Shown: positions 8,738 through 33,149 of the stretch, piece by piece | Numbering within the stretch: the first letter of the stretch is position 1 | How the letters are laid out: each line of letters starts with the position of its first letter | NCBI GenBank assembly: GCA_022824405.1 | Contig: JAJDZZ010000083.1 | Coordinates: 1-33,149 of the forward strand | Source of the DNA: Opitutales bacterium | Lineage (GTDB): Bacteria > Verrucomicrobiota > Verrucomicrobiia > Opitutales > UBA2995 | Length of the DNA: 33,149 nucleotides | Direction of reading: 5' to 3' | Translations under genes and position numbers: made by a program | The notes under the pieces: model-generated | The model's input: the letters and a program-made list of their open reading frames with translations, nothing else | Told to the model about the DNA's origin: nothing | Database searches by the model: none

Positions 8738-8748
8738 GGCAAATCGGG

Positions 8749-12848: not shown

Positions 12849-14375
12849 TTAACGGCCGATGGCGTAAAGATGGGTTTGCGTCGATAAATAAAGGGTGTCG
12901 TTGGCCACCACCGGACTGCAATAAATCGGCGTAAAAAAATCGATGAGAGCAATTTCTTCCTTTTCGCGACCGGCTTTCAGAATGACCAGTTCACCGTCTT
13001 CGTTGCCGATAAAAACCTTTCCGTCGGCCACAAGGGTGGAGGACCAGATCCGGCTGTTGGTTTCGTGCACCCATAGGTGTTCCCCGGTATCGGCGTCGAA
13101 ACAGTGGATGTCTCCATCGTATTCGGCTTGGTAAATCAACCCGTCCTTGGCGCTGGCAGTAGAAATGGTTCGTCCAATTTCCGGGCTGGTCCAGATGGCT
13201 TGGCCGGAAATGTCTCCCGTAAGGGTCGGATCGATACAACTGAGAAGCCCTACTCCATCGCCATGCTCGGGGTCCTGCCCGATGGCGACATATACCTTAT
13301 CCCGGTAGAGGACGGCGGTGGAGATGATTTCGCTGGGGCCATCGTAGGTGGCGTACTTGATCGGTTCTCCGTCCTTGGTCCGGTATTGGGGAAGATTGGC
13401 GTCGTAGCGGAACAACTCCTTCAATGCCGCAAATCCGTCTTCATGCTGGTAGGGGTCCACGTCGTAGCCATAGCAGAAACCGTCCCCTCCGCCCCATACC
13501 AGTATGGGTTTTCCCTTTACCATCGCCGCTGCCGCCGAACTCCAACTGGCGTGCAATACTCTTTCCGACACGCCCGAAACCTCTTCGCCCAAAAGTTGGC
13601 CGGTATTCTTGTCGATAGCCACCAGGGAAGGGGCATATGGCGCGGGTATGTTCTTGTGCGACCAATCCACCCCATTCGAAGTGGCGACATAGATGTAGTC
13701 CCCAAATACGAGCGGAGAACAACTGGATACATTGTGGGGGAATACTCCCAAATCCTCCCGCGCCTGGTAAATCCAAAGGATATCGGCGTATTTGTCGGTC
13801 AATTCAACCGGCTCTCCAGTGGTGGAATAAAAGGTGGCCTCGTCCTGAAATTCCCCATCGTTGCCGTTGGCCAGACCTTCCGTATCGAAGCACAGGATTT
13901 CCCCGCGATTGGTCACGACCCAGCCGCGATTGCCTTCGATAGCCGGCGATGAGCACAGCCCCACGTACTCCCAGTCGCTCACTTTGCCGGCCCCGACTTT
14001 GGGAACGATCAATTGCCAGAGGAATTCTCCGCTGGCTTCATCGAAACACATCATCACCCCGCGGTCGCCCAATTGGGCCGGGTCGCGCGGAGACTCATTA
14101 TTGGTTCCCGAGTAAACTTTTCCGCCGGCCACTACCGGAGATCCATAGGCCTGGGAACCCAATTTGGCCACCCACCTGACCCCTTTGGTCGTTTCCATGT
14201 TTATTTCCTCGCTCTTGGGCAGGAAATCTCCACTGACAATGTCGACGGGGATACCGGAAGCCTGGCCCACCATGTTGCGATCGGCCGCCCGGCCCCACAT
14301 GGGCCAGTCGGATGCCTGAGCCACCGACAAGGGGCCGATTGAAATCAAAAGGGGAAGGATAGAACGTAAATTCAT
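12849..14375 (-). CDS. secreted PQQ-like beta-propeller protein
   Basis: This 508-residue protein has a signal peptide ending near A-Q-A-S (residue 22), then the mature start D-W-P-M-W-G-R-A-A-D-R-N, a variant of the WPxWRGPxxxG entry motif. It contains several propeller blades with F-D-E-A-S-G-E-F-L-W, I-D-K-N-T-G-Q-L-L-G and F-D-A-D-T-G-E-H-L-W. Long loops between blades carry acidic stretches. It probably sits in the periplasm or cell envelope. It lies 12 bp after the larger propeller gene and 38 bp before DUF3311, inside the long minus-strand run. No catalytic residues can be assigned. Confidence 0.87.
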   Translation of the reverse strand: MNLRSILPLLISIGPLSVAQASDWPMWGRAADRNMVGQASGIPVDIVSGDFLPKSEEINMETTKGVRWVAKLGSQAYGSPVVAGGKVYSGTNNESPRDPAQLGDRGVMMCFDEASGEFLWQLIVPKVGAGKVSDWEYVGLCSSPAIEGNRGWVVTNRGEILCFDTEGLANGNDGEFQDEATFYSTTGEPVELTDKYADILWIYQAREDLGVFPHNVSSCSPLVFGDYIYVATSNGVDWSHKNIPAPYAPSLVAIDKNTGQLLGEEVSGVSERVLHASWSSAAAAMVKGKPILVWGGGDGFCYGYDVDPYQHEDGFAALKELFRYDANLPQYRTKDGEPIKYATYDGPSEIISTAVLYRDKVYVAIGQDPEHGDGVGLLSCIDPTLTGDISGQAIWTSPEIGRTISTASAKDGLIYQAEYDGDIHCFDADTGEHLWVHETNSRIWSSTLVADGKVFIGNEDGELVILKAGREKEEIALIDFFTPIYCSPVVANDTLYLSTQTHLYAIGR

Positions 14376-14387
14376 TTTGGGTGCTGC

Positions 14388-16658
14388 TCAGGGGTTGGCG
14401 GTCAAGGAGAGATTATCGATAAAAACGCGTTTCAAACTTTGGGGAGAAAAGGCGTAAACGGCGGGCGCTCCCTTCCGGTGAACCTTGTCCACTTCGACCT
14501 GGATGGTCCAATCGGAGGGTTCATCGATTCCTTTCTCCCAAACCCTGGCCCGCACCACCCCGCTCCCGTCGGGATGGGTGTCGACCCGGGTCTTCAGACG
14601 ATACCAGGTCTTGGGTTTGACCGGGAAGGGAACCGATTCCTTGAGGCGTTCGTGGTTGCTGGAAATTTCCAGGATGCGGCGATTGGCCGCAAGTGTGACC
14701 AGGTAGCGCTGGTTGACCAGCCCCACCGTGGACATGACCCGGCGGGTTCCGTCCGTCATGACATCGGCGGAAAAGGTGTAGCTGCTCAAGGTAGGCTTCC
14801 CCATGAAATTCATGGTCCGCTGCCACAACACGACCTCCAGGCGATTGGCGATGGCTTGGCCGTCTCCCATTTTCATAATGTGCCACTTCGGGCCTGCTCC
14901 CAGCCATATGGGGGGAGGCGGGGCCACGGCCACTCCGTCCCTGTCCTTCAGGGGAAGCGGAAAAGCATCGAAATTTTCCTCGTAACCGTACCCGACCACG
15001 ATCCGTCCCCGGCTCGCGCTGGTATGGCCCTCCCACGATGCCTGGACGTGGCCGACGGAAATTTTGGCATCCGCATCGGTCTCCAGAACATTGCCGGAAA
15101 TGGCGGCGTCCACCGTGGATGGTTTGCCACCCGGAGGCGACCAATGGGACAGTTCGGCTTCATCGGTCACCAACCTTACCCTACGACCGCTGGCATCAAG
15201 CCCGTAAACCTGAAAAACCTGTCGCTCATTCGGAGCAAGGGCAAATTCGGCTGGAACGAGTTGAATCTGGGCGATGGGTCCAGGCTTTTCCCTTTGGTAG
15301 GGGGAGCCTTCGGGCGGAGCCGCGGCCTCCTCCCGGCCGAAACAATGCAGGGCCTGCTTGGTAAAAACATAAGCGCGATTGCGGTAAAAGGCGGGGCCTC
15401 CCAAACAGGGTGCGCCCATTTCCTCGACACTCAGGATTTCCGCACCATCATCGGACGGCTTCAGCACGTGAACGAGCCCATCCAGCATGGGCGCGAAAAT
15501 TTTTCCGTCCGCGTAGGCGGGCGATGCATGCAATTGATCCGGCCCCAGTTTTTCGCTCCAGAGGGTTTCCCCGGAATCGGCGTCAACGCATTCCAGCGTA
15601 CCCGTGGCAATGGTGGTGTAAACGCGATTTCCCACCAGAATGGGGGAACTGGTGAAGGCTACGTGATGGTTGTTGCGCCAAGCCTCTATTTCCGGACCCA
15701 GCACCAAGGGCAATGGACCACTCGGATACTCGGTGGGAATTTTCAGACTGACCAGCCGACCCTTGGCCGTCGTATCCACATTCTCCTTCCCGTGCACAGC
15801 GATGAGGCGGTCTTCGCCATAAAGCAGCATGCTGGAATTAACCCCTCCCACCGCCAGTTGAAACCGCCATACCGGTTCACCGGTGCGGGCGTTTATGCAC
15901 ACCACATTTCCACATCCGGTTCCGGCATAAAATACGCGCTGGTCGCCCAGGTTGCCAAAGACGGGAGTGGAGAAGGAACTATCGATGGGCCTTACCCCGG
16001 GAGTACTGTACCAGACCAGGTCACCCGTGATCTTGTCGAAAGCATAAAATCGATTGCGGGCCGGTCCATTGGCGGACCAGTTGGCCGTGATCCCGTGAAC
16101 GATGACCAGGTCTTCCTCCACCACCGGCGCGCCGGTTCTCCCGTTGGGGAAGGTAAGCATCCCGAACTCTTCCATCATGGAGCGTTCCCACAGGGCAGTC
16201 CCATCCGCCGTAAACCCCATGACCAACCCGTTGGTGGATTTTACATAGACGTTTCCGGTCTCTTCATCGATGGCGGGGGCCCCGATCCCATAACGGTTGT
16301 AAATGATGTCGCTGATAAAATCCGAGAAGCGGTGTTCCCAGAGTTTTTGGCCGCTTTCCGCATCCAGGCAAAGCAGGGTTTCCTCCACGACCCCGGTTTC
16401 TCCATAATAGCCGAAGGCGTACAACCGACCATCGGCAATAACCGGAGTTCCACCACCTCGAACCGGGTAGGACCAACGGTGATCCGAACCTTCCAGATCG
16501 AGTTCCTCGGGAAGGCCCACGCCGGCATGGTAAGTCCCATTCTGTTCCGGCCCTCGCCAGTTCAGCCATCCTGTGGCGGCGGCGGAAACCCCCGGGCCGC
16601 TCAACCAAAACACGAAAATCAGGAGAGATAAATGAGGGAAATAAGACTTGAATTTCAT
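14388..16658 (-). CDS. large secreted PQQ-like propeller protein with C-terminal jelly-roll-like region
   Basis: This protein of 756 residues has a signal peptide (about 1-28) and then W-L-N-W-R-G-P-E-Q-N-G-T, the classic entry motif. A propeller occupies about 30-440 (L-D-A-E-S-G-Q-K-L-W, F-D-K-I-T-G-D-L-V-W, V-D-A-D-S-G-E-T-L-W). After a proline-rich linker near 450-460 there is an Ig-like segment (about 463-565). A further region begins Y-E-E-N-F-D-A-F-P-L and ends in V-F-I-D-N-L-S-L, which looks like a concanavalin-type sandwich. The architecture suggests a cell-surface or periplasmic binding or polymer-acting protein. It follows the TonB receptor gene by 65 bp and is its most likely partner. 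Confidence 0.85.
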   Translation of the reverse strand: MKFKSYFPHLSLLIFVFWLSGPGVSAAATGWLNWRGPEQNGTYHAGVGLPEELDLEGSDHRWSYPVRGGGTPVIADGRLYAFGYYGETGVVEETLLCLDAESGQKLWEHRFSDFISDIIYNRYGIGAPAIDEETGNVYVKSTNGLVMGFTADGTALWERSMMEEFGMLTFPNGRTGAPVVEEDLVIVHGITANWSANGPARNRFYAFDKITGDLVWYSTPGVRPIDSSFSTPVFGNLGDQRVFYAGTGCGNVVCINARTGEPVWRFQLAVGGVNSSMLLYGEDRLIAVHGKENVDTTAKGRLVSLKIPTEYPSGPLPLVLGPEIEAWRNNHHVAFTSSPILVGNRVYTTIATGTLECVDADSGETLWSEKLGPDQLHASPAYADGKIFAPMLDGLVHVLKPSDDGAEILSVEEMGAPCLGGPAFYRNRAYVFTKQALHCFGREEAAAPPEGSPYQREKPGPIAQIQLVPAEFALAPNERQVFQVYGLDASGRRVRLVTDEAELSHWSPPGGKPSTVDAAISGNVLETDADAKISVGHVQASWEGHTSASRGRIVVGYGYEENFDAFPLPLKDRDGVAVAPPPPIWLGAGPKWHIMKMGDGQAIANRLEVVLWQRTMNFMGKPTLSSYTFSADVMTDGTRRVMSTVGLVNQRYLVTLAANRRILEISSNHERLKESVPFPVKPKTWYRLKTRVDTHPDGSGVVRARVWEKGIDEPSDWTIQVEVDKVHRKGAPAVYAFSPQSLKRVFIDNLSLTANP

Positions 16659-18820: not shown

Positions 18821-18918
18821 AAAAAAAGATGGTTAGAAAAGGATCTCCATGCAATCCAAGGTTGAAAATCTGTCAATCAGACAATTTCCTGAATCGAAAC
18901 AAGAATTCGGTAACTATC

Positions 18919-20193
18919 ATGCGCCATAACCATATCATCCTCATAATCTGTCTGGCATCTCCTTCCCTCTTCGCCAACTGGACCAATTGGAGGGGCCCCA
19001 ACTTCAATCTTTCCACCGAGGATCAGGCTTTCCCCAGCCGGTTTTCGGATTCCGAGAACGTGGTTTGGTCCGTCCCCGTTCCCGGTGAAGGCACGTCCAC
19101 ACCCGCCATCTGGGGAAATTCCATATACCTGACCTGTTTTTATGACGGTCTCGACTTGGCCATTGCTTTGGATAACCGGGGCCAAAAACTATGGGAAACG
19201 GAAATCGGAACGGGGGTTGAAGGCAGCCACCGCGCCGGTACCGGAGCCAATTCCAGCCCGGTAGTCGACGACAGTGGCGTTTATGTTTACTTCAAGTCCG
19301 GAAATCTGGCCAAACTTTCTCACAGCGGTGAGCAAATATGGAAAACCAATCTGAAAAAGGAGTACAGCATCGACGGCCACTGGTGGGATGAGGGAACCTC
19401 CCCCGTGCTGGTAGACGATTTTCTCATTGTCGCCGTGATGCAGCAAAACCAACGCAGGGATGGAAAAAAGGCCAATGCCTACGTCGTGGCCTTCGATAAG
19501 ACCTCGGGGAAGGAAGCTTGGATGGCTGACCGCAACCTCAACGCGCCGGTCGAATCCAACGATTCCTATTCCACTCCCCTGGTGGCAACCGTCGACGGGG
19601 AAAAACAACTGGTAATCTGGGGGGCCGACCAATTGACCGGACACTCCTTGAAAAACGGAAAAATTATCTGGAGGTGCAAGGACTTCAACCCAAGCGAGAA
19701 CAAGAATTGGAGGACCATCGCTTCCCATGCCATAGCGGACAATGTGGCCATCGTCCCTTACGGCCGCGGCGCTGTGGTGGCCGGCATTCAAATGGGGGGC
19801 GAGGGGGACATCACCAAACAATCCAGGCTTTGGGAGATCGAACGGATCGGATCCGACGTGCCGACTCCGGCCATCTACCGCGACACCGCCATCGTATTGA
19901 CCGATCGCGGCATGCTGACCGCTGTGGAAGTAAAATCGGGCGAAATCAAATGGCAGAGCAATCTTCCGAGGAAGCCCACCCGCTTCTACGCCTCCCCCAT
20001 TGTAGCGGGCGACCGGCTTATTTGCAGCCGGGAAGACGGTACGGTTTTCGTCTGCCGATTGAGCGACGACGGCATGGAAATCCTGGCCGAAAACAGTTTG
20101 CCGGGTAGCGCCATCGCCTCTCCCGTTGCTCACGACGACCGGCTTTACATTCGCACCGCAAACCGGTTGTACTGCATCGGCCGGCAAAGTTGA
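18919..20193 (+). CDS. secreted PQQ-like beta-propeller protein, divergent from the TonB receptor
   Basis: This protein of 424 residues has a signal peptide (about 1-18, ending S-L-F-A) and the entry motif N-W-T-N-W-R-G-P-N-F-N. Blades include A-L-D-N-R-G-Q-K-L-W, F-D-K-T-S-G-K-E-A-W and V-E-V-K-S-G-E-I-K-W. The ATG at 18919 is chosen because it begins the signal peptide; the frame upstream is not signal-like. It is the fifth propeller of the window and the only one of them on the plus strand. It likely works with the TonB receptor region rather than with the sterol genes, which begin 85 bp downstream on the same strand; read-through is possible. Confidence 0.87.
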   Translation: MRHNHIILIICLASPSLFANWTNWRGPNFNLSTEDQAFPSRFSDSENVVWSVPVPGEGTSTPAIWGNSIYLTCFYDGLDLAIALDNRGQKLWETEIGTGVEGSHRAGTGANSSPVVDDSGVYVYFKSGNLAKLSHSGEQIWKTNLKKEYSIDGHWWDEGTSPVLVDDFLIVAVMQQNQRRDGKKANAYVVAFDKTSGKEAWMADRNLNAPVESNDSYSTPLVATVDGEKQLVIWGADQLTGHSLKNGKIIWRCKDFNPSENKNWRTIASHAIADNVAIVPYGRGAVVAGIQMGGEGDITKQSRLWEIERIGSDVPTPAIYRDTAIVLTDRGMLTAVEVKSGEIKWQSNLPRKPTRFYASPIVAGDRLICSREDGTVFVCRLSDDGMEILAENSLPGSAIASPVAHDDRLYIRTANRLYCIGRQS

Positions 20194-21462: not shown

Positions 21463-22485
21463 ATGCCCTCAAAACGATCGAATTCCAGTTACCTTGCAGA
21501 CCTCACCCCGGATGAAATAAAATCCGTGGTCGATCAATATACCGGGCTCCACGAGGCCGGGTCGGACCGCAAAAAGGAGCGTTATGAGTCGCTGGTCAAT
21601 CACTACTACGACTTGGTGACCGACTTCTACGAGTTTGGATGGGGTTCGTCCTTTCACTTTGCTCCCCGGCGGCGAGGTGAGAGCTTCAAGGCCTCACAGC
21701 TCAGGCACCAGCTATTTCTCGCCGAACGGCTTTCCTTGCAACCGGGAATGCAAGTGCTCGACGTGGGGTGCGGGGTTGGGGGTCCGATGGCCGCTCTGGC
21801 CAGCCATTCCGGGGCCAACTTTGTCGGCATTAACAATAACGCCTACCAGATCGAGCGCGCCAATAAGCACACCCGGAATGTCAAGTCCTTGTGCCGGTTT
21901 ATCCATGGCGACTACATGCGCATTCCCGAGGAAGACGACCGCTACGATGCCGCCTTCGCCATCGAGTCCATGCCCCACGCGCCGGACAAGGCCGCAGCCT
22001 TCCTGGAGGTCTTCCGCGTTCTGCGTCCGGGCGCTTGTTTCGCCGCCTACGATTGGTGTCTCACCGATATTTTCGATCCGGAAAATGCGGATCACCAACG
22101 GATCAGGAACGATATTATAGTGGGAGATGCCCTACCGGATATTGCCCTCACTGGGGAGGTTTGCCATGCATTGCGCACGGCCGGATTCGAGATCCTGGAA
22201 GCCCGCGATCTCGCCCCCGAGTCGCATCCTGAAACGCCATGGTACCGTGCCTTGCAGGGTCGCGACTTCACCCTCAAAAGTATTCCGCGCACACCTTTGG
22301 GGCGCGCCATGACCAATTTGGTGTTGAGAGCAGGGGAGAGGCTCCGGATGGTTCCCCAAGGCACCAGGGCGGTCAGCACGATATTGAATACAGGAGCGGA
22401 TGCGCTGGTCGAAGGTGGCGAGTCCGGGGTTTTTACTCCCATGTTCTTCTTTCTTGCCCGTAAACCTCTGTCCTCGGGAGACTGA
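21463..22485 (+). CDS. sterol C-24 methyltransferase (Erg6/SMT type)
   Basis: This protein of 340 residues carries the diagnostic SMT regions: Y-Y-D-L-V-T-D-F-Y-E-F-G-W-G-S-S-F-H-F (48-66), the SAM site L-D-V-G-C-G-V-G-G-P (99-108), A-I-E-S-M-P-H-A-P (167-175), and G-D-A-L-P-D-I (221-227). A C-terminal SMT domain follows (about 270-335). The first region matches the sterol-binding YEYGW segment of yeast Erg6 almost residue for residue and separates it from generic methyltransferases. It transfers a methyl from SAM to C-24 of a delta24 sterol. It follows sdmB by 113 bp; its stop is directly followed by the next ATG with no gap. Bacterial SMTs are rare. Confidence 0.92.
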   Translation: MPSKRSNSSYLADLTPDEIKSVVDQYTGLHEAGSDRKKERYESLVNHYYDLVTDFYEFGWGSSFHFAPRRRGESFKASQLRHQLFLAERLSLQPGMQVLDVGCGVGGPMAALASHSGANFVGINNNAYQIERANKHTRNVKSLCRFIHGDYMRIPEEDDRYDAAFAIESMPHAPDKAAAFLEVFRVLRPGACFAAYDWCLTDIFDPENADHQRIRNDIIVGDALPDIALTGEVCHALRTAGFEILEARDLAPESHPETPWYRALQGRDFTLKSIPRTPLGRAMTNLVLRAGERLRMVPQGTRAVSTILNTGADALVEGGESGVFTPMFFFLARKPLSSGD

Positions 22486-23064
22486 ATGAAATACGTTTTC
22501 GATCCCGAGGTCCTGCGCGATGTCGCCCGTTCACATCTCGATATGCCGCTGGAGAAGATGCTTCCCTCCATCACTCAAGACTTGGCCCAACGGTATCCCG
22601 GCCTGATCGAGACCAAACCCGAGTGGTTTCTATCCAACGCCGGCGGCACCATGGGGCAACTCACCATTCTCTATGCCTCGCTTCGGGAGTACGTCATCTT
22701 TTTCGGAAGCCCCATTGGCAGTGGTGGACACACCGGTCGTTATCACTTTGCCGAAGATTTCCATGTTCTTCTGGATGGGGAAATGTGGTACTTTGGCGAA
22801 GGGGACCTTCAACGGGAGGTCTACCGCCCTGGGGCCTTCGTGTATTTGCCCAAAGGTCAAGCAATGGGCTTTCGCATCGTCGAACGTGCCTGGATTCTCG
22901 AATACGCCCGCGGAGCCATACCGACCATGCTGCCCTTCGGTCTGGCCGATACCCTGTTCAGCACCCTAGATTTCATCACCTTTTACCGCACCTTTAGGAT
23001 TTATATCAGGCACGTCTTGCGTTCCGCGCGAAGGCGATCTCGCACCATCCGGGCAAGTCGTTGA
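22486..23064 (+). CDS. ERG2/sigma-1 receptor-family sterol C-8 isomerase
   Basis: This 192-residue protein matches the ERG2/sigma-1 family along its whole length. It begins Y-V-F-D-P-E-V-L; N-A-G-G-T-M-G (51-57), the cupin-like core with G-S-P-I-G-S-G-G-H-T-G-R-Y (74-86), E-V-Y-R-P-G (111-116), L-E-Y-A-R-G-A-I-P (138-146) and L-A-D-T-L-F-S-T-L-D-F (153-163) follow. E139 lies where sigma-1 E172 and the yeast acid sit. The N-terminal membrane anchor of the eukaryotic proteins is missing, while the C-terminal amphipathic helices remain. It should move the double bond from delta8 to delta7. The ATG directly abuts the SMT stop, so the two are tightly coupled. Confidence 0.9.
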   Translation: MKYVFDPEVLRDVARSHLDMPLEKMLPSITQDLAQRYPGLIETKPEWFLSNAGGTMGQLTILYASLREYVIFFGSPIGSGGHTGRYHFAEDFHVLLDGEMWYFGEGDLQREVYRPGAFVYLPKGQAMGFRIVERAWILEYARGAIPTMLPFGLADTLFSTLDFITFYRTFRIYIRHVLRSARRRSRTIRASR

Positions 23065-23107: not shown

Positions 23108-26100
23108 TCATGTTGAAAGTTTGACCTCTCTCCGCCTTGGGCGCCTCGCCCGCTGTCGCTGCTCGTATAGACCGAGCGCGCGTAGGGGAAAATACTGCCG
23201 ATACAGGGTGTAGTCCAACAGCGCCGTGCGGAAGAAGACCCCGGCCATGTCTTGCCTGGGCCATCCCCCCTCCGCATCCTGAGTGTCGACCAAAAATCGC
23301 ACCCCCTGGGAAATTGCCGTCCAGCTCGAATTTCTCGCCTCGAGGAGAGCAATCAATGCCCAAGCCGTTTGGATGACTTGGCTTTTCTCATGCGAAATGT
23401 ATCGGCCGGTCAAGCAACCGCTGTGGTGCTCACCCCATCCGCCGTCTTCTCGTTGGCGGTCCAACAACCACTGACAGGCCAAACGAACCGCCGGATCGCC
23501 GGGACGAACTCCACCAGCAAGCAGACCTCTGATTCCGAAAAAAGTGCCATAGATGAACTGAACGCCCCATGCGCCGCGCCACGACCCATCGCTGGCCTGG
23601 GTCCGGCGCAGCCAGTCATCCCCACGTGAGATGGCTCTCCTCACTTCCCCATTCACGATTTGGGGAAAGCGCTCCTCGCAAGCGGCCAGCGCGGCGAGGC
23701 AGGACGCGGTGCACTCGACGTGGGAATGCTCCGTCATCGAGTCGCCAAACATCTCGGCCGGATTCAGCCACTCCAGTCCAACCACGGAGCGTTGCGCTTC
23801 ATAGGTGCCAAACCCGCCATCGCGGTTCTGCCCCCTCAACATGAAACGAACCGCGTCGGACAGCATGGTGGTGCTCGTGGCCTCCCCCTCAGCCGCAATT
23901 ATCCCGAGAACCGCTTCCGCCGTGCAGTCTGTCACCGGCCATCCATGCCAGTCCCCGGCAAAACACCAGCCGCCTTTGGGATCGATCCGATAAGCCTCGC
24001 GAAATCCTTCGAAGCTGGTAGCGATTTGTTGTCTGCGCAGGAAGTCAGCTCCCCCTCGAAGAGCCTTTCGAACCCCGTCGATCTGGGGCGCCGTGGCCAG
24101 CGCTTGCAGGGAGAATCCGGTATCCCAGGAGGCGCTTCTCGCTCCGGTGACCCTGGCTCCACACTCCTCGTCCTCCCAGAACCAGCCTTCCAGTTGCGCC
24201 AACGCCTTTTGGCAGTCGGGGTCGTTTTTATCATCCAACCATAAGGCAAGGATGTTGAGGAGACCGCTGACCGGAGAAATGCTCGTATGGTCCGTGGTTT
24301 GCAACTCCCACTTGATGCGCCGGATTAATACTTCCATACATCGGGCACGCATGCCCTTGCCGTGGAAACGTTCGAATAACCGCGCCAACCCGTAACCGAT
24401 CCGTAGCCATGCGCTGGGCCGGGCGTAGAGGTCGCCGTCTCGCAAGTGATTGCGCGCAGCGGAAAAATCGACCTTGCCATACCCCTGTGGAAACAACTCC
24501 TCCCGTAGCGACGCGATCAAGGGCGTGACAGGCGTCTGGAACCGATGCGGGTAAACCGCCGCCATCGCCATGTAGATGAGCCGGGTATGGCAGTACCAAT
24601 TGGAAGGATGTAACGGGATCCAGCGAGGCAGGATCCACAACTCCGGCAGAATGGCGTTCACCCCGCGCCAGTCGTAGAGATTGAGAAGCGCCAGCCAGAA
24701 CTTTCCCCAACTCGGGATTTGGAGAACCTTCTCTTTTTGCAGGAATCGCAGGGCTGGATCGAGGAGCGGATCATCCCGCTCCAGACCCAGTAATCTCGCA
24801 GCCACGTATACCAGGGTCGTGACAAACAGATGGGGTGGCGAATGGTCGTGCATACCCCACGAGCCTCCTTCCAGCCGGGTTCTTTCGAAGGAACGCAGAA
24901 CGCGCCGCCGCCGTCCCGGTTCGAGGGGCCTTTCCATCATGTGATGCAACAGCACGTATTGCGCGGTCAGCATGGGACACCAAACCATCTCACCTTCCCA
25001 TGCGCCATTCTCGTCCTGGAGACTTGACAGGCGCTGACACGCCCTCCTCAACGCCGAATCGGCATCGAGCGAGTTGACCGCCCTTGGGCGTATGCTCTGT
25101 TGGTCGTTTTTGCCGGAGGGCATTGAAATGAGAAATGTGCGGTCCCAGTATTTCCTGACTCGCTCGTCCTTTTTCAGGCCCGCGTTTCTTCGCTTGTGCA
25201 GTTGCTGAACGCCCCGCACCAGCCACCAAAGGCGAACGGAGAGGGCATGGACGATGTCGCGGGTTCGACGCCATGCCAGCTTGTTCCAGGATAGGGGAAT
25301 CTCCCCTGCCACGGTCTGGATCACCGTCGCGGAAAACTCGCGCCCCAGATAGGCTTGCGAGGTATTTTGACAAGCCAGTAAACGCATGGTCCGGTCGCGC
25401 ACGGCGGATTTTGCCCGCCAGCGCCGGTAAACCGCCTGTCTGATCGCCACCACCTCGGCTCGATGATCGGCAAAGACATCGTAGAGCCCCAAGGCGAGCA
25501 ACTCGGGCACCCGGACTGCCTGAATCCGTTTGTTGGTAAAGTCGCGAAAATCCCCGACTTCGGCCAGGGTAAGCGCATCACCGAAACCGAGGGTCATTCC
25601 CACCGCCGTCATGGGATGGTAGTGCCCGGCCGCGTCCCCGATAAGCACTCGATGCGGATTGCCGTAACTGGCCCGCAACCTCGTCCCGTTGGACGCTACA
25701 TGGAAATTCCTGGCCCGCAGCGCCGCGACGAAGGCAGGCCTGAGGGTTTCCGGTAATAATCTGGAATACGAGTCCGATACGAAGGCAATCCAGTCCCGGC
25801 GTGTCCAGCAGTGCATGGGGATGTCGACCAGTAACCGGACGCTGTCTGTTCCCAGGCGGTATATGAGGATTGGACCGGGGCCACCGCACAACACGTGCCC
25901 ATAACCTTCCAGCGGTAGCTTCACCCTCTCCAGTTTAATCCCCATCATTCGGGAGCAGGTTACCGGGCTCGTCGATAATCCCAACGAGCGCCGCACCACT
26001 GAGGCCCGGCCGTCGGCGCCGACGATCCGCGCCGCCGTCAAGGATTCATCAACCCCGTTACGGGTAAAGGTGAGCCGCTCGTCCTCGACCTCCCTTACCC

Positions 26101-26485
26101 GCGCGTGGAGAAAAAAGTCGATGCCCGCCTCCTTTTCGATAACTTCCCGCAGACACGAGACCAGTTCCGAATGCTCGCATGCCAAACCGTGAGAACCGTC
26201 CAGATAGGGAAGGACTATCGCCTCCGAACCATCTTCCGGGAACACTACGAATCCTTTTCCCCTGGCGCTGGGGGATTGCTTGTCGAGATCTATCCCGAAT
26301 TCGTTTAATATCTGCACTGAAGGCGGGTGCAGCCATTCGCCCGCAAGCCGTGTGGAAGCTTTGGGATTTGCTTCCAGCAGAACCACCCTGGCGCCTTTTC
26401 GCGCGTGAGCCAGAGCGCACAAGCTGCCCACCGGACCCGCCCCGACCACGGCCACGTCGTAACGCCCAACCGCGGCTCCCGTCAT
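23108..26485 (-). CDS. fused squalene-epoxidase-like flavoprotein and oxidosqualene cyclase
   Basis: One uninterrupted frame of 1125 residues. Residues 8-430 are an FAD monooxygenase: G-A-G-P-V-G (15-20), R-L-A-G-E-W-L-H-P (46-54, like the RxxGExLxP of squalene epoxidases) and I-G-D-A-A-G-H-Y-H-P-M-T (282-293). From about 474 it is a triterpene cyclase: N-W-Y-C-H-T-R (629-635), the catalytic V-T-D-C-T-A-E (851-857, acid D853), Q-x-x-D-G-G/S-W/F repeats near 886, 963 and 1011, and F-G-D-S-M-T-E-H-S-H-V-E-C-T-A. DCTAE rather than DxDD marks an oxidosqualene, not squalene-hopene, cyclase. It would convert squalene to oxidosqualene and then to a protosterol. The ATG at 26485 overlaps the CYP51 stop (ATGA); a TTG at 26554 is less likely. 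Confidence 0.92.
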   Translation of the reverse strand: MTGAAVGRYDVAVVGAGPVGSLCALAHARKGARVVLLEANPKASTRLAGEWLHPPSVQILNEFGIDLDKQSPSARGKGFVVFPEDGSEAIVLPYLDGSHGLACEHSELVSCLREVIEKEAGIDFFLHARVREVEDERLTFTRNGVDESLTAARIVGADGRASVVRRSLGLSTSPVTCSRMMGIKLERVKLPLEGYGHVLCGGPGPILIYRLGTDSVRLLVDIPMHCWTRRDWIAFVSDSYSRLLPETLRPAFVAALRARNFHVASNGTRLRASYGNPHRVLIGDAAGHYHPMTAVGMTLGFGDALTLAEVGDFRDFTNKRIQAVRVPELLALGLYDVFADHRAEVVAIRQAVYRRWRAKSAVRDRTMRLLACQNTSQAYLGREFSATVIQTVAGEIPLSWNKLAWRRTRDIVHALSVRLWWLVRGVQQLHKRRNAGLKKDERVRKYWDRTFLISMPSGKNDQQSIRPRAVNSLDADSALRRACQRLSSLQDENGAWEGEMVWCPMLTAQYVLLHHMMERPLEPGRRRRVLRSFERTRLEGGSWGMHDHSPPHLFVTTLVYVAARLLGLERDDPLLDPALRFLQKEKVLQIPSWGKFWLALLNLYDWRGVNAILPELWILPRWIPLHPSNWYCHTRLIYMAMAAVYPHRFQTPVTPLIASLREELFPQGYGKVDFSAARNHLRDGDLYARPSAWLRIGYGLARLFERFHGKGMRARCMEVLIRRIKWELQTTDHTSISPVSGLLNILALWLDDKNDPDCQKALAQLEGWFWEDEECGARVTGARSASWDTGFSLQALATAPQIDGVRKALRGGADFLRRQQIATSFEGFREAYRIDPKGGWCFAGDWHGWPVTDCTAEAVLGIIAAEGEATSTTMLSDAVRFMLRGQNRDGGFGTYEAQRSVVGLEWLNPAEMFGDSMTEHSHVECTASCLAALAACEERFPQIVNGEVRRAISRGDDWLRRTQASDGSWRGAWGVQFIYGTFFGIRGLLAGGVRPGDPAVRLACQWLLDRQREDGGWGEHHSGCLTGRYISHEKSQVIQTAWALIALLEARNSSWTAISQGVRFLVDTQDAEGGWPRQDMAGVFFRTALLDYTLYRQYFPLRALGLYEQRQRARRPRRREVKLST

Positions 26486-27891
26486 CGGAAAACGCTCGAA
26501 CCCGGGCGGCGGCGGTAGCGGAACCGGCAAGGTTCTTTTGGGCCCGTCACCCAACTGCCGTAATTCGGGGCCGGGAACCCATTGATCCGTTCAAAATCGA
26601 AACGATCGAGCAGCACGGTCCAGATCGCTTTCAGTTGCATGTAAGCGAAATGTTTCCCCATGCAACGGTGTTTGCCCCCACCGAAACCGATCAAAGCGTA
26701 ACTGTGCTGCTTATCCTCGCAAGCGGGCTCCGCAAAGCGGTCCGGAAAAAACTGATCCGGGTCCGCAAACAAATGGGGTAACCGGTGAGAGACGGCCGGG
26801 GACACCATGGCCATAGCCCCGGCTGGCACCACGAAATCCTTGTAACGCATGGGTTTTAATATTTTGCGGATCAGCATTATCAACGGCGGATGCAGCCGCT
26901 CGCACTCGCGTACGGCGTGCTCCATCGTCACTTGTTCTTTGAGACTCTCCAGGCTCATGCTTCCCGCTTCGCCGTAGACGTCTCGCGCCTCCTCCCTCAC
27001 CCGTGCCAGGTATGACGGCGCCCTCGTAAGTTCCAGACCAATCCAGGTTGCCAGAACCGCGCTGGTGTGTTGGCCCGCGAACAACACGGTCAGAAGGATC
27101 CCGGTGATCTCATCATCGCTCAAAGCCCGGCCATCCTTGTAACGGGCCTGTATCAGGGTCTGCATGAAATCGTCCGGACGAGCTCCGGAATCCCGCCGCG
27201 CCGTCATGATCCGGCTGAAGAGTTCGGCCACTCTTTCCCGGGCCCGGTCGCGGGTTCGATGTGCCTTTGTGGGAAGCCTGGGGAGAAAAAACCCCAAAGT
27301 GTTGATGCCCTTTTGCAGATCGTGATAGGCATCGGCAAATCCCGTGTCCACCTGTTCCCGGACTTCCTCCCCAATGAGGCAACGACTGGCGATCTTGACC
27401 GTGAGTTCGTTCATGGCGTGCGGCAGATCGATTTCCCCATTCTCCCCCAGGGCCTCGGCGAATTCCCTGGCCTCCTTGAACATGATCCGGGCAAATTTCT
27501 CCAACGCCGCCTTGCGGAGCGCCGGAAACAGAAACATGAGCTGCTCGTCCATTATCTCCGTCGCCACGTCGTAAGCCACCCCGCGCCCGAAGATCGGAAC
27601 CGTAAACTGATAGACCGCTTTGGCATTCAGTTGATCCTCCGGCGCTCTGAAGAAAAAGTCGTGGGCCTCCGGTCCGGTAAAGAGAAAGAAATCGCGCGGA
27701 CCGAGCCGAAACTGGAACAACTCTCCTCGTTCGCGCCAACCCCGGCTCAACAGGGAGATCGGATCCTTTTGAAAATCCCTTAGATGACCGATCAACGGCC
27801 ACCCACCCGATAACGCGGGGACGGCCTTTTCCGCCCGCGGCGGAAGCGGAGCTTGAGGCAGGGTTGCTACACTGTCAGTCCGGTTTTCCAT
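26482..27891 (-). CDS. cyp51: CYP51 sterol 14alpha-demethylase
   Basis: This P450 of 469 residues has the CYP51 B'-helix signature Y-Q-F-T-V-P-I-F-G-R-G-V-A-Y-D (94-108), the I-helix A-G-Q-H-T-S (272-277, matching the CYP51 GQHTS), E-C-E-R (329-332) and the haem loop F-G-G-G-K-H-R-C-M-G (Cys410). It removes the 14alpha-methyl in three oxygen-dependent steps, giving a delta14 sterol for the reductase encoded just upstream. F96 is at the position where plant, mycobacterial and T. brucei CYP51 have Phe and animals and fungi have Leu. The ATG at 27891 is supported by a strong AGGAGGGGA site; a longer frame upstream overlaps the reductase gene. Redox partners are not in the window. Confidence 0.95.
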   Translation of the reverse strand: MENRTDSVATLPQAPLPPRAEKAVPALSGGWPLIGHLRDFQKDPISLLSRGWRERGELFQFRLGPRDFFLFTGPEAHDFFFRAPEDQLNAKAVYQFTVPIFGRGVAYDVATEIMDEQLMFLFPALRKAALEKFARIMFKEAREFAEALGENGEIDLPHAMNELTVKIASRCLIGEEVREQVDTGFADAYHDLQKGINTLGFFLPRLPTKAHRTRDRARERVAELFSRIMTARRDSGARPDDFMQTLIQARYKDGRALSDDEITGILLTVLFAGQHTSAVLATWIGLELTRAPSYLARVREEARDVYGEAGSMSLESLKEQVTMEHAVRECERLHPPLIMLIRKILKPMRYKDFVVPAGAMAMVSPAVSHRLPHLFADPDQFFPDRFAEPACEDKQHSYALIGFGGGKHRCMGKHFAYMQLKAIWTVLLDRFDFERINGFPAPNYGSWVTGPKEPCRFRYRRRPGSSVFR

Positions 27892-27900
27892 TCCCCTCCT
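27892..27900 (-). promoter_or_regulatory. strong ribosome binding site for cyp51
   Basis: On the minus strand AGGAGGGGA lies directly before the ATG at 27891 and follows the stop of the reductase gene. It fixes the cyp51 start against the longer frame. Confidence 0.6.
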
Positions 27901-29000
27901 CAATAAACGTATGGCACCATGGAATAACGGACTCGGCGCGTGTAGCGTTTCCACAACTCCCCGTACTTGGCCCGACAGCGGCGTTCGTCACGTCTCGACC
28001 GATGCCACAACAGACCCGCCAGCCACGCCGGCAACAGAAAAGGCGCCCAGGATTCGAATCCAGTGGTGAGGGCGAAGGCGAGGTAGACGCAAATTTCGCC
28101 GGTATAATTTAGATGCCGTCCAATTCCCCAAAATCCGGAAATCAGCAGGCGCCCCTCCAAAGACCGGGCCGGACTCCCCCAAATCGTAGTCTCGGGGTCG
28201 CGTTTGAAGCGGTGCTTCTGCCCGTTGGCCCCGCGGAAAACCCAGAAGCCCAATGTGAACAACAGAACGATGGCGGCGGCGGCAAGGGGAGAAAGCGGTT
28301 CTCTCGGGTGGATCAGCCACCAGCCCGCCAAGCTGTAAAAGAAGGGTACCAGCACGTAGTCTCCCCAGATCAACATCCATCCGAAACGCTCGCTGACCAT
28401 GTCCCAGGTGTGAATCATTCCCTGTTCGAAATGGAAATAGTTGAGCACGTACAATAATGTGAATGCCTGATAGAGCCCCATCGCCAGGGTGAGCCGACCG
28501 TAGATTTCGTACTGCGCCAGGGCGAACGATACGTTGAACAAGGCCAAGCCGATCAGGGAAGGGCGGTAGCTGAAAAGTTTCAGGTCCACTCCCAGGCAAG
28601 TCGGACTGGGATCCACTCCAAAAAAGAACCCTCGCCATTTTCCCGGCGACGCCTCCCGGGTCCGGCCCCCTCGAAAATACAACCAGCCGGATAGGGCGAA
28701 GGCCCATACGTTTGCCACCGCGAACAAAGCGGTAAAATGAGTGTGCAACGCTGAAAATGAAAACCAGCCGGAGACCTGGGCCAGGCATCCCACCATCATC
28801 ACGATCAGGAACAAGGTCAGGCCATTGAGCTTATAGGTCCGTAAATTTCCATCGGGATCCGGTCCTTCAATCCGGCGCCCGGGCAGGAGTATCGAACCCA
28901 GAAACAAAACGCCGACAAACGCCGTTATCATCGCCGCCGCCTCCAAAACGTTGCCGGGCGATGGGGTGGACAAGGGGAATCCCAGGTCAGGCCCTGGCAT
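27900..29000 (-). CDS. ERG24/LBR-type sterol C-14 reductase
   Basis: This protein of 366 residues has eight to ten membrane segments. It has the sterol-reductase family marks: Y-K-L-N-G-L (56-61), G-W-M-L-I-W-G-D-Y-V-L-V-P-F-F-Y-S (207-223), L-L-I-S-G-F-W-G-I-G-R-H-L-N-Y-T-G-E (285-302), and the NADPH-site tail H-R-S-R-R-D-E-R-R-C-R-A-K-Y-G-E-L-W (333-350). The G-W-M-L-x-x-G-D stretch is closer to ERG24/LBR (GFMLxxGD) than to DHCR7 or ERG4, and the CYP51 neighbour supplies the delta14 substrate. It should reduce the 14-15 double bond. The ATG at 29000 has GGAGGG 5 nt before it; the gene overlaps the end of sdmA by 14 bp. Confidence 0.9.
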   Translation of the reverse strand: MPGPDLGFPLSTPSPGNVLEAAAMITAFVGVLFLGSILLPGRRIEGPDPDGNLRTYKLNGLTLFLIVMMVGCLAQVSGWFSFSALHTHFTALFAVANVWAFALSGWLYFRGGRTREASPGKWRGFFFGVDPSPTCLGVDLKLFSYRPSLIGLALFNVSFALAQYEIYGRLTLAMGLYQAFTLLYVLNYFHFEQGMIHTWDMVSERFGWMLIWGDYVLVPFFYSLAGWWLIHPREPLSPLAAAAIVLLFTLGFWVFRGANGQKHRFKRDPETTIWGSPARSLEGRLLISGFWGIGRHLNYTGEICVYLAFALTTGFESWAPFLLPAWLAGLLWHRSRRDERRCRAKYGELWKRYTRRVRYSMVPYVY

Positions 29001-30084
29001 CGGCACCCTCCGTCTCGCGCGCCAAATGCTCCCGCCACTTGCGCACGGTCACTTTTTGAAAGGCCCGAACCACCGGATTGACCTCGATGGGAGGTGCGTC
29101 CCAATGTTTCTCGTAACCTTCCTGCTCAGCTTCCACCGCAACCCGATCCTCCGAAAGCAGCGGGCCGATGAGGGTCCGGTTCGCGATCTTCAACACCGTG
29201 ACCATGGCGAAACGGGGAATGCGAATGGGCAGCAAGGGTATCTTCAGGGACTTGAAGTAGAACAGGAAGAACGCCCGTGTCGTTCGCTCGTCCATCGGCA
29301 ACACGAAAAGCCAGTGTTTTATTTCATCATCCGTGTTGGACCTCTGGTAGGGGTATTGATAGCAAAGCTCCATGTAATTGGTGTCGACCTTTTCGTGATC
29401 GACAAACAGGCCCGAAATCCGACCGCGCCCCACCCGCGTATTGTAGGCCAGGTGGACATCGTCGCCGATGGTCTCGCAACGGGTCAGGTTGGCCTCGTCG
29501 AAGGGTCGGTACCGACGGTGCAAGTAGGCGTGGGAAAAATCGCTTACATTGTCGATCACCATGGAGTGATGGGCCGAGCAGGTGAAGCTCAGGGGCACGC
29601 AGGCCCACCTCCCGGGTCCCTCCAACTCGGGGATGTCCGGGATCTGCCGCCGCTCCGCCAACTCCGGGTCCCCGGGGAACAACCATACCAGACCGTAACG
29701 GACCTGCACGGGATAGCTCCTCACCGAGAGTTTCGGGACGCCCTTTCGTCCGAACAGATCCGGCATCCCCACCACGCGCCCGTTTTCATCATACTCCCAG
29801 CCATGGTAGGCGCAGACCAGCCGGCAACCTTCCACCTCGCCCAGGGAGAGTTTGAGCTGGCGGTGCAGACAGCGATTCTCCACCGCGTGAAACGAGCCGG
29901 CCTCCCCTCGAAACAGGGCAATGGAACGCTTCCAGAAAACCACCTCGACCACCGAGCCCGGTTTTACCCGCTTCACTTCTTCAACCGCGTACCAGTAATC
30001 CGGATCCATTCCCGCCGCGCGGGCCTGTTGACGCAAATTGCCGGCCTCCTCGAAATTGGGTGGAGGACTTGGCACAGGGCTCAT
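28987..30084 (-). CDS. sdmA: SdmA-like Rieske oxygenase (sterol C-4 demethylation)
   Basis: This protein of 365 residues has a Rieske [2Fe-2S] domain with C-L-H (C72, H74) and C-A-Y-H (C91, H94). The mononuclear iron motif is D-N-V-S-D-F-S-H-A-Y-L-H (D178, D182, H185, H189). The C-terminal half is of the terminal-oxygenase type. In bacteria that demethylate sterols at C-4, a Rieske oxygenase (SdmA) replaces the eukaryotic ERG25 step. The location upstream of the C-14 reductase and CYP51, with an SdmB-like SDR in the same locus, supports this. 3-ketosteroid 9alpha-hydroxylase (KshA) is an alternative by fold but fits the context poorly. The histidine spacing HxxxH is one shorter than the usual HxxxxH. 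The start at 30084 has only a weak GGGGAAA upstream; a longer frame exists. Confidence 0.83.
   Translation of the reverse strand: MSPVPSPPPNFEEAGNLRQQARAAGMDPDYWYAVEEVKRVKPGSVVEVVFWKRSIALFRGEAGSFHAVENRCLHRQLKLSLGEVEGCRLVCAYHGWEYDENGRVVGMPDLFGRKGVPKLSVRSYPVQVRYGLVWLFPGDPELAERRQIPDIPELEGPGRWACVPLSFTCSAHHSMVIDNVSDFSHAYLHRRYRPFDEANLTRCETIGDDVHLAYNTRVGRGRISGLFVDHEKVDTNYMELCYQYPYQRSNTDDEIKHWLFVLPMDERTTRAFFLFYFKSLKIPLLPIRIPRFAMVTVLKIANRTLIGPLLSEDRVAVEAEQEGYEKHWDAPPIEVNPVVRAFQKVTVRKWREHLARETEGADARA
29006..29011 (-). promoter_or_regulatory. ribosome binding site for the sterol C-14 reductase
   Basis: GGAGGG on the minus strand, 5 nt before the ATG at 29000 and inside the last codons of the Rieske gene. 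It supports ATG 29000 over the GTG at 29006. Confidence 0.5.
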
Positions 30085-30512
30085 TTCACGGCCATTTCGG
30101 GAATTTCCCCTGTGCTTTGACTCGGAAAGAGGTCTCTCCTTCCTCTCCCAACGCTCACTATCTGATAGCGGGGGCAATCGGTTCCTTCCTATGGTTGACA
30201 TGCCCCCAGATAATCTCCCGGTGGAGGCCGGGTCAATGTCATATTGGGCCGCCTCGATGGGGCCCGTTGCGCCGCACGCATGCTCTTGGGAGGGGGATAG
30301 GAACTGTGCACTGCCGGGTCCGATGGCTCTCCCTATGAAATCCATCCCCGATGAAGAGTTCCATGCGTTCCTCAGCGCATTGGCGTGGTCGCCCGACCTT
30401 GTTCCAATTGAAAATATGACTTGCCCGCCCAGGTCCGAGCATTACATTAACTACCTGTACAACTAGGGCAATTGGCCGATAGTTTAGAGATATAGGAGGG
30501 AGACAAAGGTTG
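30085..30512. other. 428-bp divergent intergenic region
   Basis: This region lies between the starts of the minus-strand sterol operon and the plus-strand GPP34-P450 gene, so it must hold both promoters. On the minus strand TTGACC (about 30231-30236) with GATTAT 15 bp further on is a poor promoter candidate. A TGACAT/ATGTCA pair (about 30196-30201 and 30236-30241) forms a 6-bp inverted repeat around it. A plus frame ending at 30466 has no recognisable protein features. AGGAGGG at 30494-30500 belongs to the P450 gene. Confidence 0.45.
30494..30500 (+). promoter_or_regulatory. Shine-Dalgarno-like AGGAGGG before the GPP34-P450 gene
   Basis: AGGAGGG lies 12 nt before the ATG at 30513, which is somewhat far; an AAAGG at 30505-30509 is nearer. 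Both support a start at 30513 or the adjoining TTG at 30510. Confidence 0.45.
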
Positions 30513-32540
30513 ATGGCTAAATCTACAGGTGCATTGAAGACCCAACCGTTAACTTTGACCCAAGAGTTCATCCTGATGCTTCTCAACGAGGAGACCGGCT
30601 ACTTTCATCAGGTGGCGGGCTGGAATTTGAACTGTGCTGTGGTCGGCGCGGCCCTCGGGGAACTTTCGCTGAGATCGCGCATCGACACGGACATGGAGTC
30701 CCTTTTCCTGGTGGATCGGACGGAAACGGGCAACTCCGCCCTGGACCCCATACTGAAAGAAATTGCCGACGAACCGGTTCAACGCAACACCCAGTACTGG
30801 ATCGAAAAACTCGCTCCCCGTGCGGAATCGATCCTGGATTCGGTGCTGGATAACCTGGTTGACCAAAGGATCCTGGAACACCACGAAGGGGACTTCTGGA
30901 CACTGGCTCCTTCTGTCTGGCACACGGACCAGACCAGCGACTCCCAGGAAGGTGCTCCAGGAGAATTCATCAAAACGCGCATCAATAAGGCGATCTTCCT
31001 GAACGAGATTCCCGATCCCAGAGACATCATCATTATTTGTCTGGTCAATACCTGCGATGTCTTGCGCTTCATTTTCCAACTGGATGAGGCGGCGGAAAAG
31101 CGCATTGAGTTTCTCTGCAAAATGGACCTGATCGGGCGAGCGATTGCGGAAGCGGTGGGCCAGAGCATCGTCGCGCCCTCGCTTCGCCGGCCCTCGCTGA
31201 CCAAGCCGATTCCAGCCGTGTCCCTGCGTGATCTGGTGTTCAACCGCGAGCTACGAGAGGGCAGGCTGCCGGCCGGGTTCGCCAATTTGGCCAAAAAGTA
31301 CGGTCCGGTTTTCGAGCTTCGGCTCCCGTTCCGCCAGAACATAATCTTCCTGGTAGGTTTGAAGACGAATGAATGGGCTCAACGCATGGGGCGAGTGTTC
31401 TTGCGGTCGAAGGAGTACTTCGAGGAGGTCGACAGGGCGTATGGCGTGTCGCGCTCAATGCACTCGGTTGACGGCGCCGATCACTTTCGCTTTCGCAAAT
31501 CGTTGAAACCTGCCTACTCTCCCAAGACTTTGACCAACCGTCTGGACGACGTCTATGACCTGACCCGCGCGCACATGGCGAGTTGGGACGTTGGCAGCAC
31601 GATGCCGGCGCAGGTGATGCTGCGACCATTGCTGAACGCGCAGTCATCGCCGCTCCTGGCCAGCATTGACACTCAGGATGAGATCGTCGACGCGCTCAAA
31701 TACAAGGTGCGGGTGCTCAATGTAGGCATCATGAAGATGATGCCACGTTTCATGCTCAAGACCCCGGGAATGAGGCGCTGGGCGAAGGTCACACAAAAGA
31801 TCGTAGACCGTATGCAAAGCACACATACGGCCGCGCAGCGGGTCGGGATGCATGAGGACGTGGTGGACGCATATCTGGCCCTGCACGCGACCGATCCCCA
31901 ATTCCTGCCCGAATCGGACCTGTCGCTGCCGCTAGGGGCGATCTTGATGACCGCCATGTACATGGGCGATCAGGTTGGCTTTGCCCTTTACTGGTTGCTG
32001 CAGAATCCCGAGCTCTACGAGCGAGTCACGGCCGAAGCGGACGCGCTGTGGGCCGAGGGCGATCCCAGGGAGGATGACTTAAGTCTGGACCGGATCGACG
32101 TGACCCACCGGGTGTTGATGGAGGCTCTGCGGATGTCGCCGATCGCGCCCTTTTCGATGCGCACGGTGATGAATACCTGCGTGGTGGAGGGTTTCGAATT
32201 ACCGGTCGGGGCGCAACTCGTGATTGCGCAGACTGCCACGCACTACTCGGAAGAGGTGTTTCCCGATCCGTGGACGTTCGACATAGAACGCTACGCGCCC
32301 CCGCGAAACGAGCACCTCAGCAGAGGCTACGCGCCCTTCGGGCTGGGCACGCACTCCTGTCTCGGGAGCCGCTGGGCCAACCTGCACATGGCGATCAACC
32401 TGCTGATGCTCACGCATCACTTCAAGATCGAGCTGGCCCGCCCCTACAAGCGGTTGCCGATGGACCCGTATCCCTCACAATCGCCCAGCAACAAACTTAA
32501 GTTCAGGCTCGCTGAGCTGCGGCACGAAATTCGAGTCTGA
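30513..32540 (+). CDS. GPP34 (GOLPH3-like) domain fused to a cytochrome P450
   Basis: This protein of 675 residues has an N-terminal GPP34 domain (about 12-225): L-T-L-T-Q-E-F-I-L-M-L-L-N-E-E-T-G opening, A-A-L-G-E-L-S-L-R-S-R-I, a helical W-I-E-K-L stretch, and I-P-D-P-R-D-I-I-I-I-C-L-V. In eukaryotes this fold binds PI4P on Golgi membranes; the bacterial role is unknown. From about 235 it is a P450: C-helix H-F-R-F-R-K, E-A-L-R (537-540) and the haem loop F-G-L-G-T-H-S-C-L-G (Cys616). The I-helix reads Y-M-G-D-Q-V-G, lacking the usual acid-threonine pair. The GPP34 part may tether the P450 to membrane; its substrate could be a sterol made by the neighbouring operon (inference). The DNA looks richer in G+C than the 17 kb region. 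Confidence 0.85.
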   Translation: MAKSTGALKTQPLTLTQEFILMLLNEETGYFHQVAGWNLNCAVVGAALGELSLRSRIDTDMESLFLVDRTETGNSALDPILKEIADEPVQRNTQYWIEKLAPRAESILDSVLDNLVDQRILEHHEGDFWTLAPSVWHTDQTSDSQEGAPGEFIKTRINKAIFLNEIPDPRDIIIICLVNTCDVLRFIFQLDEAAEKRIEFLCKMDLIGRAIAEAVGQSIVAPSLRRPSLTKPIPAVSLRDLVFNRELREGRLPAGFANLAKKYGPVFELRLPFRQNIIFLVGLKTNEWAQRMGRVFLRSKEYFEEVDRAYGVSRSMHSVDGADHFRFRKSLKPAYSPKTLTNRLDDVYDLTRAHMASWDVGSTMPAQVMLRPLLNAQSSPLLASIDTQDEIVDALKYKVRVLNVGIMKMMPRFMLKTPGMRRWAKVTQKIVDRMQSTHTAAQRVGMHEDVVDAYLALHATDPQFLPESDLSLPLGAILMTAMYMGDQVGFALYWLLQNPELYERVTAEADALWAEGDPREDDLSLDRIDVTHRVLMEALRMSPIAPFSMRTVMNTCVVEGFELPVGAQLVIAQTATHYSEEVFPDPWTFDIERYAPPRNEHLSRGYAPFGLGTHSCLGSRWANLHMAINLLMLTHHFKIELARPYKRLPMDPYPSQSPSNKLKFRLAELRHEIRV

Positions 32541-32589: not shown

Positions 32590-33149
32590 ATGGAACCTTT
32601 GGCAATGAAGTCATTTGGCGGCGGACGACCAAACACCGTACGGGCGATCACGGGGGCGAGCGGGCAGATCGGTGGGGTGTTGACGCGGGCTTTGGCCGAG
32701 AAGTACGGGCCCTGTCAGGTTCGTGCGATCTTTCGGAAGCGTCGAGGGACGGCGGCGGATCTCGACATCGCATGGGTCAATGGCGACATTCTCGACAAGA
32801 AGTCGCTGATCGCAGCCTTCGTGGGCGCGGAAACCGTGTTCCATTTGGCTGCGTTGGTCTCGATCGGTAGCGTCAGGGCGCGGGAATTCCATCGCACGAA
32901 TGTCCTGGGCACCCGCAATGTCGTGGAAGCGGCCCTCGAATGTGGGGTGAGACGCTTGATTCATGTTTCCTCGGTCCACGCTTACGACCAACACCCGCTG
33001 GAAGAAGTGCTGGACGAGAGCCGCCGTCCTGCGGACAGCCCGCGCGAAGCGCCCTACGACCGTTCGAAAGCCGCCGGCGAAGTGGAAGTCCGCCGCGGCA
33101 TCGACCGCGGCCTGGACGCCGTGATCCTGAATCCGACCAGCGTGATCGG
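32590..33149 (+). CDS. NAD-dependent epimerase/3beta-HSD-like SDR, cut by the window end
   Basis: An open frame of 186 residues runs off the right edge. It has the Rossmann motif I-T-G-A-S-G-Q-I-G-G, the strand end N-G-D-I-L-D, H-L-A-A-L-V-S, N-V-L-G-T-R-N-V and the catalytic Y-D-R-S-K. It is the same extended-SDR class as the SdmB-like protein at 20279, sharing H-x-A-A-x-V-S and N-V-L-G-T-R-N-V. It begins 49 bp after the GPP34-P450 stop and is probably co-transcribed. It may be a second sterol 3-dehydrogenase or a dehydrogenase for the P450 product. The ATG at 32605 is an alternative start. Confidence 0.8.
   Translation, partial: MEPLAMKSFGGGRPNTVRAITGASGQIGGVLTRALAEKYGPCQVRAIFRKRRGTAADLDIAWVNGDILDKKSLIAAFVGAETVFHLAALVSIGSVRAREFHRTNVLGTRNVVEAALECGVRRLIHVSSVHAYDQHPLEEVLDESRRPADSPREAPYDRSKAAGEVEVRRGIDRGLDAVILNPTSVI

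Follow-up and report, generated by a model that had tools for sequence, protein, structure and literature searches.

A GPP34 (GOLPH3-like) domain is joined to a cytochrome P450 in a single gene of the Opitutales DNA analysed here (the window, meaning the whole stretch of 33,149 nucleotides), and this fusion has turned out to be a recurrent bacterial protein that is usually encoded beside sterol genes, in lineage after lineage. The fusion is real: neither chance nor a misassembly at this spot can account for it, since the same protein is present in a second genome of the genus (L015) and at 54 further loci. Its GPP34 half lacks the lipid-contacting residues of GOLPH3 and its P450 half lacks the usual I-helix motif. 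Our assessment, evenly balanced between belief and doubt, is that it is a P450 that tailors sterols and uses its GPP34 domain for docking.

The Fusion Gene and Its Distribution

The reading frame begins at a TTG (676 aa), and the ATG one codon later, which we used for numbering, is also the start in several relatives (Table 1). Pfam GPP34 (PF05719) matched residues 16-217 with an E-value of 1.4e-30, spanning profile positions 1-199 of 201, and Pfam p450 (PF00067) matched residues 257-651 with an E-value of 1.3e-34 and 120.3 bits against a cut-off of 22.8. AlphaFold2 models of the whole protein (pLDDT 84.4) and of the N-terminal domain alone (pLDDT 86.3) agreed with these assignments. The earlier note had read the same two domains from the sequence, and had named two ways in which that reading could fail, namely an N-terminal part without a match to the GPP34 profile or a fusion absent from related genomes; the former scored 107.3 bits where 29.1 would have sufficed, and L015 and the 54 loci answer the latter. 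It also knew of no characterised protein with this layout, and a literature search, with most subscription journals outside it, gave no published description of GPP34 and P450 together. Both domains are known; what the literature searched did not describe is their combination in one protein, the altered residues and the place of the gene in these clusters.

Table 1. Features of the window that bear on the fusion and its neighbourhood
Feature	Positions	Strand	Remarks
Sterol C24-methyltransferase (SMT)	21463..22485	+	
ERG2/sigma1-receptor-type sterol isomerase	22486..23064	+	
Squalene epoxidase-oxidosqualene cyclase fusion	23108..26554	-	
CYP51-like P450	26482..27954	-	normal I-helix (AGQHTS)
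ERG24-type sterol Delta14-reductase	27900..29006	-	237 bits
SdmA-type Rieske 4beta-methylsterol monooxygenase	28987..30345	-	divergent neighbour; NF052579 408.8 bits, below 600 cut-off
GPP34-P450 fusion CDS	30513..32540	+	675 aa from ATG; TTG at 30510; stop at 32540
GPP34 (GOLPH3-like) domain	30555..31160	+	PF05719, 107-110 bits
Linker	31161..31277	+	similarity to relatives shifts abruptly at linker start
Cytochrome P450 domain	31278..32462	+	PF00067, 120 bits
Invariant Tyr483 (ATG numbering), I-helix	31959..31961	+	35/35 sequences
Haem-binding loop FGLGTHSCLG with Cys616	32337..32366	+	Cys invariant 35/35
3beta-HSD/SdmB-like SDR	32590..33147	+	directly downstream of fusion; cut by contig end

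A scan of one genome per species in GTDB 220 returned 55 loci, and the 54 numbered L032-L085 have the fusion, whole or truncated, with 38-90% identity across the region matched. Every complete copy among the 55 homologous loci examined is the same fusion, at 38-87% identity; a few copies are broken or run off a contig end. The record titles of the metagenome-assembled genomes (MAGs) involved name Latescibacterota, Gemmatimonadota, Acidobacteriota, Alpha- and Gammaproteobacteria, Chloroflexota, Binatia, Dadabacteria, Poribacteria and Rhodothermales, labels amounting to about nine phyla. Single short contigs may be misbinned, but some copies lie on contigs of 4.2, 2.9 and 2.5 Mb and several on contigs of 0.2-0.5 Mb, and such lengths rule out faulty binning as the cause of the whole spread. 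The L015 copy is 62% identical to that of the window, and the nearest fusion relatives of the window copy are from Latescibacterota MAGs; because of transfer, such relatives are an unreliable guide to phylum. Nearly all of the MAGs are presumably from sponges, as we recognised them by their isolate prefixes and from published sponge clusters, and the hosts are thus apparently mostly sponge symbionts. Those published MAG steroid clusters contain ERG24, CYP51, LSS, SMT and ERG2 and come with evidence of transfer between phyla (PMC9531527; SMT clusters in PMC10070321).

Within the phylum of the window, 21 other genomes of a 388-genome sample had a GPP34 match to the fusion profile at E <= 1e-30, and in none of the 21 did the match cover the P450 part. 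These stand-alone GPP34 copies had no P450 reading frame within ~1.5 kb by blastp with the fusion and CYP51. Such stand-alone bacterial proteins, among them Streptomyces SCO4440 (PMC12402492), belong to the same Pfam family as the fusion but are not joined to a P450, and some are joined to STAS instead; STAS-GPP34 fusions of the window's phylum (L109 1408-2487; L101 1078-2151) are another architecture of the domain.

The Sterol Neighbourhood

The earlier note placed the fusion gene divergent from a sterol operon, and the adjoining minus-strand sterol genes bear this out. The window also provided an exact 141-bp overlap (33009-33149) with the end of contig C51 (L123) of the same genome (G000), which is an assembly k-mer join of the two contig ends. 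On C51 the truncated SDR is completed to 347 aa in all, and beyond it are a 5alpha-reductase, a divergent KshA-type Rieske gene, a TPR-like conserved gene and an RND-HlyD-OMF set. By virtue of this join, the window's genome has the same cassette as the other fusion loci.

Sterol-type genes, counted as 3beta-HSD-like SDR, steroid 5alpha-reductase, KshA-type Rieske, SMT and squalene epoxidase-oxidosqualene cyclase, lie within 8 kb of the fusion in 48 of 55 fusion loci, and RND or MMPL exporter genes are near it in 35. Most of the seven loci lacking sterol-type genes have short flanks, and for one of them, L015, a longer flank adds RND genes and a KshA-type Rieske. In 27 loci the next gene downstream of the fusion is an SDR, of one family throughout, and the gap between the two is often 68 bp. 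The largest group (38 loci) has a matched SDR of the 3beta-HSD/SdmB kind in 31, a steroid 5alpha-reductase (PF02544) in 21, an RND pump in 13, and a KshA-type (KshA_C) Rieske in 15, a count that includes loci matched by the antisense frame C10. That frame (375 aa, no Pfam hit, 18 loci) was dropped as an unknown neighbour gene, since to judge by where it lies and how it reads it is the Rieske gene in antisense. Recurrent neighbours in the other groups are SMT, squalene epoxidase-oxidosqualene cyclase, a gene resembling flavin amine oxidases, and MMPL proteins that match the sterol-sensing domain. The earlier note had proposed checking whether the pairing with sterol genes is kept elsewhere, and with 48 of 55 loci over so many phyla the link is stronger than it had claimed.

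Several other features of these loci deserve mention. The window's squalene epoxidase and oxidosqualene cyclase are one protein of 1148 aa; fused SMO/OSC homologues are mentioned in PMC10070321, and the two enzymes are separate reading frames in two Dehalococcoidia loci (L064, L066). MMPL genes with the sterol-sensing-domain match are close to the fusion at L042 (10013-12340), L062 (7605-10085) and L073 (4945-7365), and two of them also match Patched. The window itself contains five genes for PQQ-like beta-propeller proteins (402-1883, 7559-8752, 12852-14375, 14391-16658 and 18829-20190).

A GOLPH3 Fold with a Different Surface

The N-terminal half shares the fold of GOLPH3 and is detectably similar to it in sequence. 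Its model matched GOLPH3/Vps74 chains (9qpq, 3kn1, 2zih) at Z 16-19, the best being 9qpq_B (Z 19.1, 2.7 A over 196 residues), and the next unrelated fold had a Z of 4.7. A profile search matched 3kn1 (E 3.9e-7), though phmmer with the N-terminal half alone found nothing in the PDB.

The residues tell of a different surface. The PI4P-contacting residues of human GOLPH3, which we take to be W81, R90, R171 and R174 (numbering confirmed by alignment), are all replaced in the fusions. The W81 column is never W but of P/A/D type, with a Trp 2-3 residues later in most copies, and among 18 fusions aligned with human GOLPH3, R90 has become V/A/I, R171 nearly always Glu, and R174 I/V/L. The half has a net charge of -11 to -24 and a pI of 4.1-4.9 (mean 4.4), against +2 for GOLPH3 over the same span and a mean of -8 for stand-alone bacterial GPP34; the P450 half averages about +5. 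In the hairpin a Phe is invariant and a Trp/Tyr is retained, and the basic RRYP-like segment after it, kept in most sampled stand-alone proteins, is missing in the fusions. Bacterial, joined to a P450, strongly acidic and stripped of its PI4P residues, the domain differs from GOLPH3 and Vps74, and the lipid binding in the GOLPH3 sense that the earlier note had suggested is not supported at residue level.

A P450 with an Altered I-Helix

The C-terminal half is a P450: its model matched CYP51-fx (Z 34.9) and CYP46A1 (Z 34.8) with BM3 close behind, and Cys616 of the haem-binding loop and E537 and R540 (ExxR) are invariant in all 35 sequences compared, with a PERF-like segment also kept. What sets it apart is the I-helix, in which the acid-alcohol pair is absent family-wide: in place of the (A/G)Gx(D/E/H)T motif of canonical O2-activating P450s there is [TA][AGS][MVIL]Y[ML][GA], with the Tyr invariant. 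If residues are counted back from the PE motif that follows (+16), Tyr483 occupies the catalytic Thr site, whereas three MAFFT modes open one I-helix gap and put Tyr483 on the acid position and Met/Leu on the Thr. Three P450s were seen in the window's genome, and the other two, the CYP51-like protein and a third P450, keep AGQHT and AGNET, respectively.

Without this pair, the haem probably supports something other than ordinary O2-dependent hydroxylation. Some P450s without the I-helix Thr, such as P450eryF, still hydroxylate, so unusual chemistry is not proven by the change. Nothing relevant to a Thr-to-Tyr change was found in the literature, most subscription journals being outside the search. 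No flavodoxin-type reductase was found in the window's own genome, and no CPR-like partner was identified for that reason.

Sterol P450s (CYP51 of Methylococcus capsulatus, CYP46A1) are among the best sequence and fold matches to this half, but identity is ~16-23% and the I-helix motif is not shared. The assignment of the half to CYP51 was considered and rejected, with ~20-23% identity versus the ~40% or more of a CYP family and the AGxHT-type motif missing; unlike the fusion P450, the separate CYP51-like P450 of the same genome has the normal motif. The fold matches to CYP51, CYP46A1 and BM3 are nearly tied and name no substrate.

Separate Histories of the Two Halves

Comparison of the copies indicated that the halves have not always travelled together. 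Between the window and L015 the GPP34 half is ~80% alike and most of the P450 half ~50%, and between the window and a Gemmatimonadota/Alphaproteobacteria group the values are ~50% and ~85%, with the switch at about residues 215-225, the domain boundary. Trees of the halves disagree: with clades picked after seeing the data, the penalty is 325 log units (AU 1e-32) for forcing the GPP34 clade (window, L032, L033, L015) onto the P450 tree and 38 (AU 0.0018) for forcing the P450 clade onto the GPP34 tree. Recombination at the domain boundary is the simplest account of these sequences, and would mean that the halves act as modules. The L015 copy (127-2196, also L126 13647-15716) returns to resembling the window-type P450 over residues ~525-600, and a second exchange inside its P450 half is possible.

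Proposed Function

In the reading that we favour, the P450 half would act late in a bacterial sterol pathway, alongside the 3beta-HSD-like SDR, the steroid 5alpha-reductase and the KshA-type Rieske oxygenase, or SMT in other lineages. Its substrate would be a late sterol intermediate, either 3-keto or 5alpha-reduced, or C24-alkylated, and candidate chemistries are desaturation, isomerisation or a peroxide-driven reaction. The acidic GPP34 half may hold the soluble P450 at the inner membrane by gripping basic cytoplasmic segments, whether tails or loops, of sterol enzymes embedded there, instead of by binding PI4P; an acidic patch of GOLPH3 has been proposed to catch the short basic tails of Golgi enzymes in this manner (PMC8421267), and the co-encoded RND/MMPL pumps could export the product. 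By analogy, an acidic GPP34 domain without a PI4P site fits such a protein-docking role; charge alone is no proof of client binding, because stand-alone bacterial GPP34 is acidic too. We infer the substrate, reaction, docking partner and export, and the link to sterols is one of guilt by association drawn from the neighbourhood.

Other accounts of the GPP34 half must be set against this one. It could be a lipid-binding anchor for anionic lipids or sterols that recruits the P450 to the membrane or supplies its substrate, an idea for which the fold and the aromatic residues of the hairpin speak and which we hold to be possible though doubtful, given that no PI4P contact survives in this strongly acidic domain, with Glu at one of the four positions in almost every copy, and that, to our knowledge, bacteria generally lack PI4P. 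In our view the GPP34 half more likely localises the P450 than supplies it with lipid. The opposite charges of the halves raise the thought that GPP34 contacts the basic P450 half of its own chain or of a dimer mate, aiding folding or regulation and having no part in docking; the swapping of halves between lineages argues against a tightly co-evolved interface, and we regard this as very unlikely. A further alternative concerns the P450 half, which might be a non-catalytic, haem-containing module that binds, carries or senses sterols and hands them to RND/MMPL exporters. The family-wide loss of the acid-alcohol pair and the exporter genes near 35 loci would suit it, but the retention of the Cys ligand, ExxR and PERF-like segment in sequences only 38% identical suggests catalysis, or at least a haem that is needed, and makes it an unlikely explanation.

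Returning to the docked, sterol-tailoring P450, its boldest version is one we would call rather improbable as a whole: a Golgi-adaptor fold without its PI4P site would be a tail-capturing dock for a membrane sterol metabolon centred on a P450 whose haem chemistry is non-canonical, and sponge symbionts of nine or more phyla would have reshuffled and passed on both the cassette and its halves and would make an undescribed steroid.

Relation to Known Sterol Systems

The published sponge-symbiont steroid clusters (PMC9531527, PMC10070321) are of the same type as those of the fusion loci, but the passages covered here do not mention a GPP34-P450 fusion, and genes outside the KEGG steroid pathway appear there only as 'Others'. 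The BstA/B/C sterol transport system, a proposed export tied to sterol synthesis, offers an analogy only for the pumps near the fusion, and its abstract describes no GPP34 or P450 part (PMC10942540). The origin of the unusual sponge sterols used as molecular fossils is disputed (PMC10070321), and the fusion offers a definite enzyme to consider where bacterial sterol pathways in sponges lack tailoring steps. It is also a case of the GOLPH3 fold working away from the Golgi after losing its PI4P site, and with that fold contained in one soluble protein, the role of bacterial GPP34 becomes testable.
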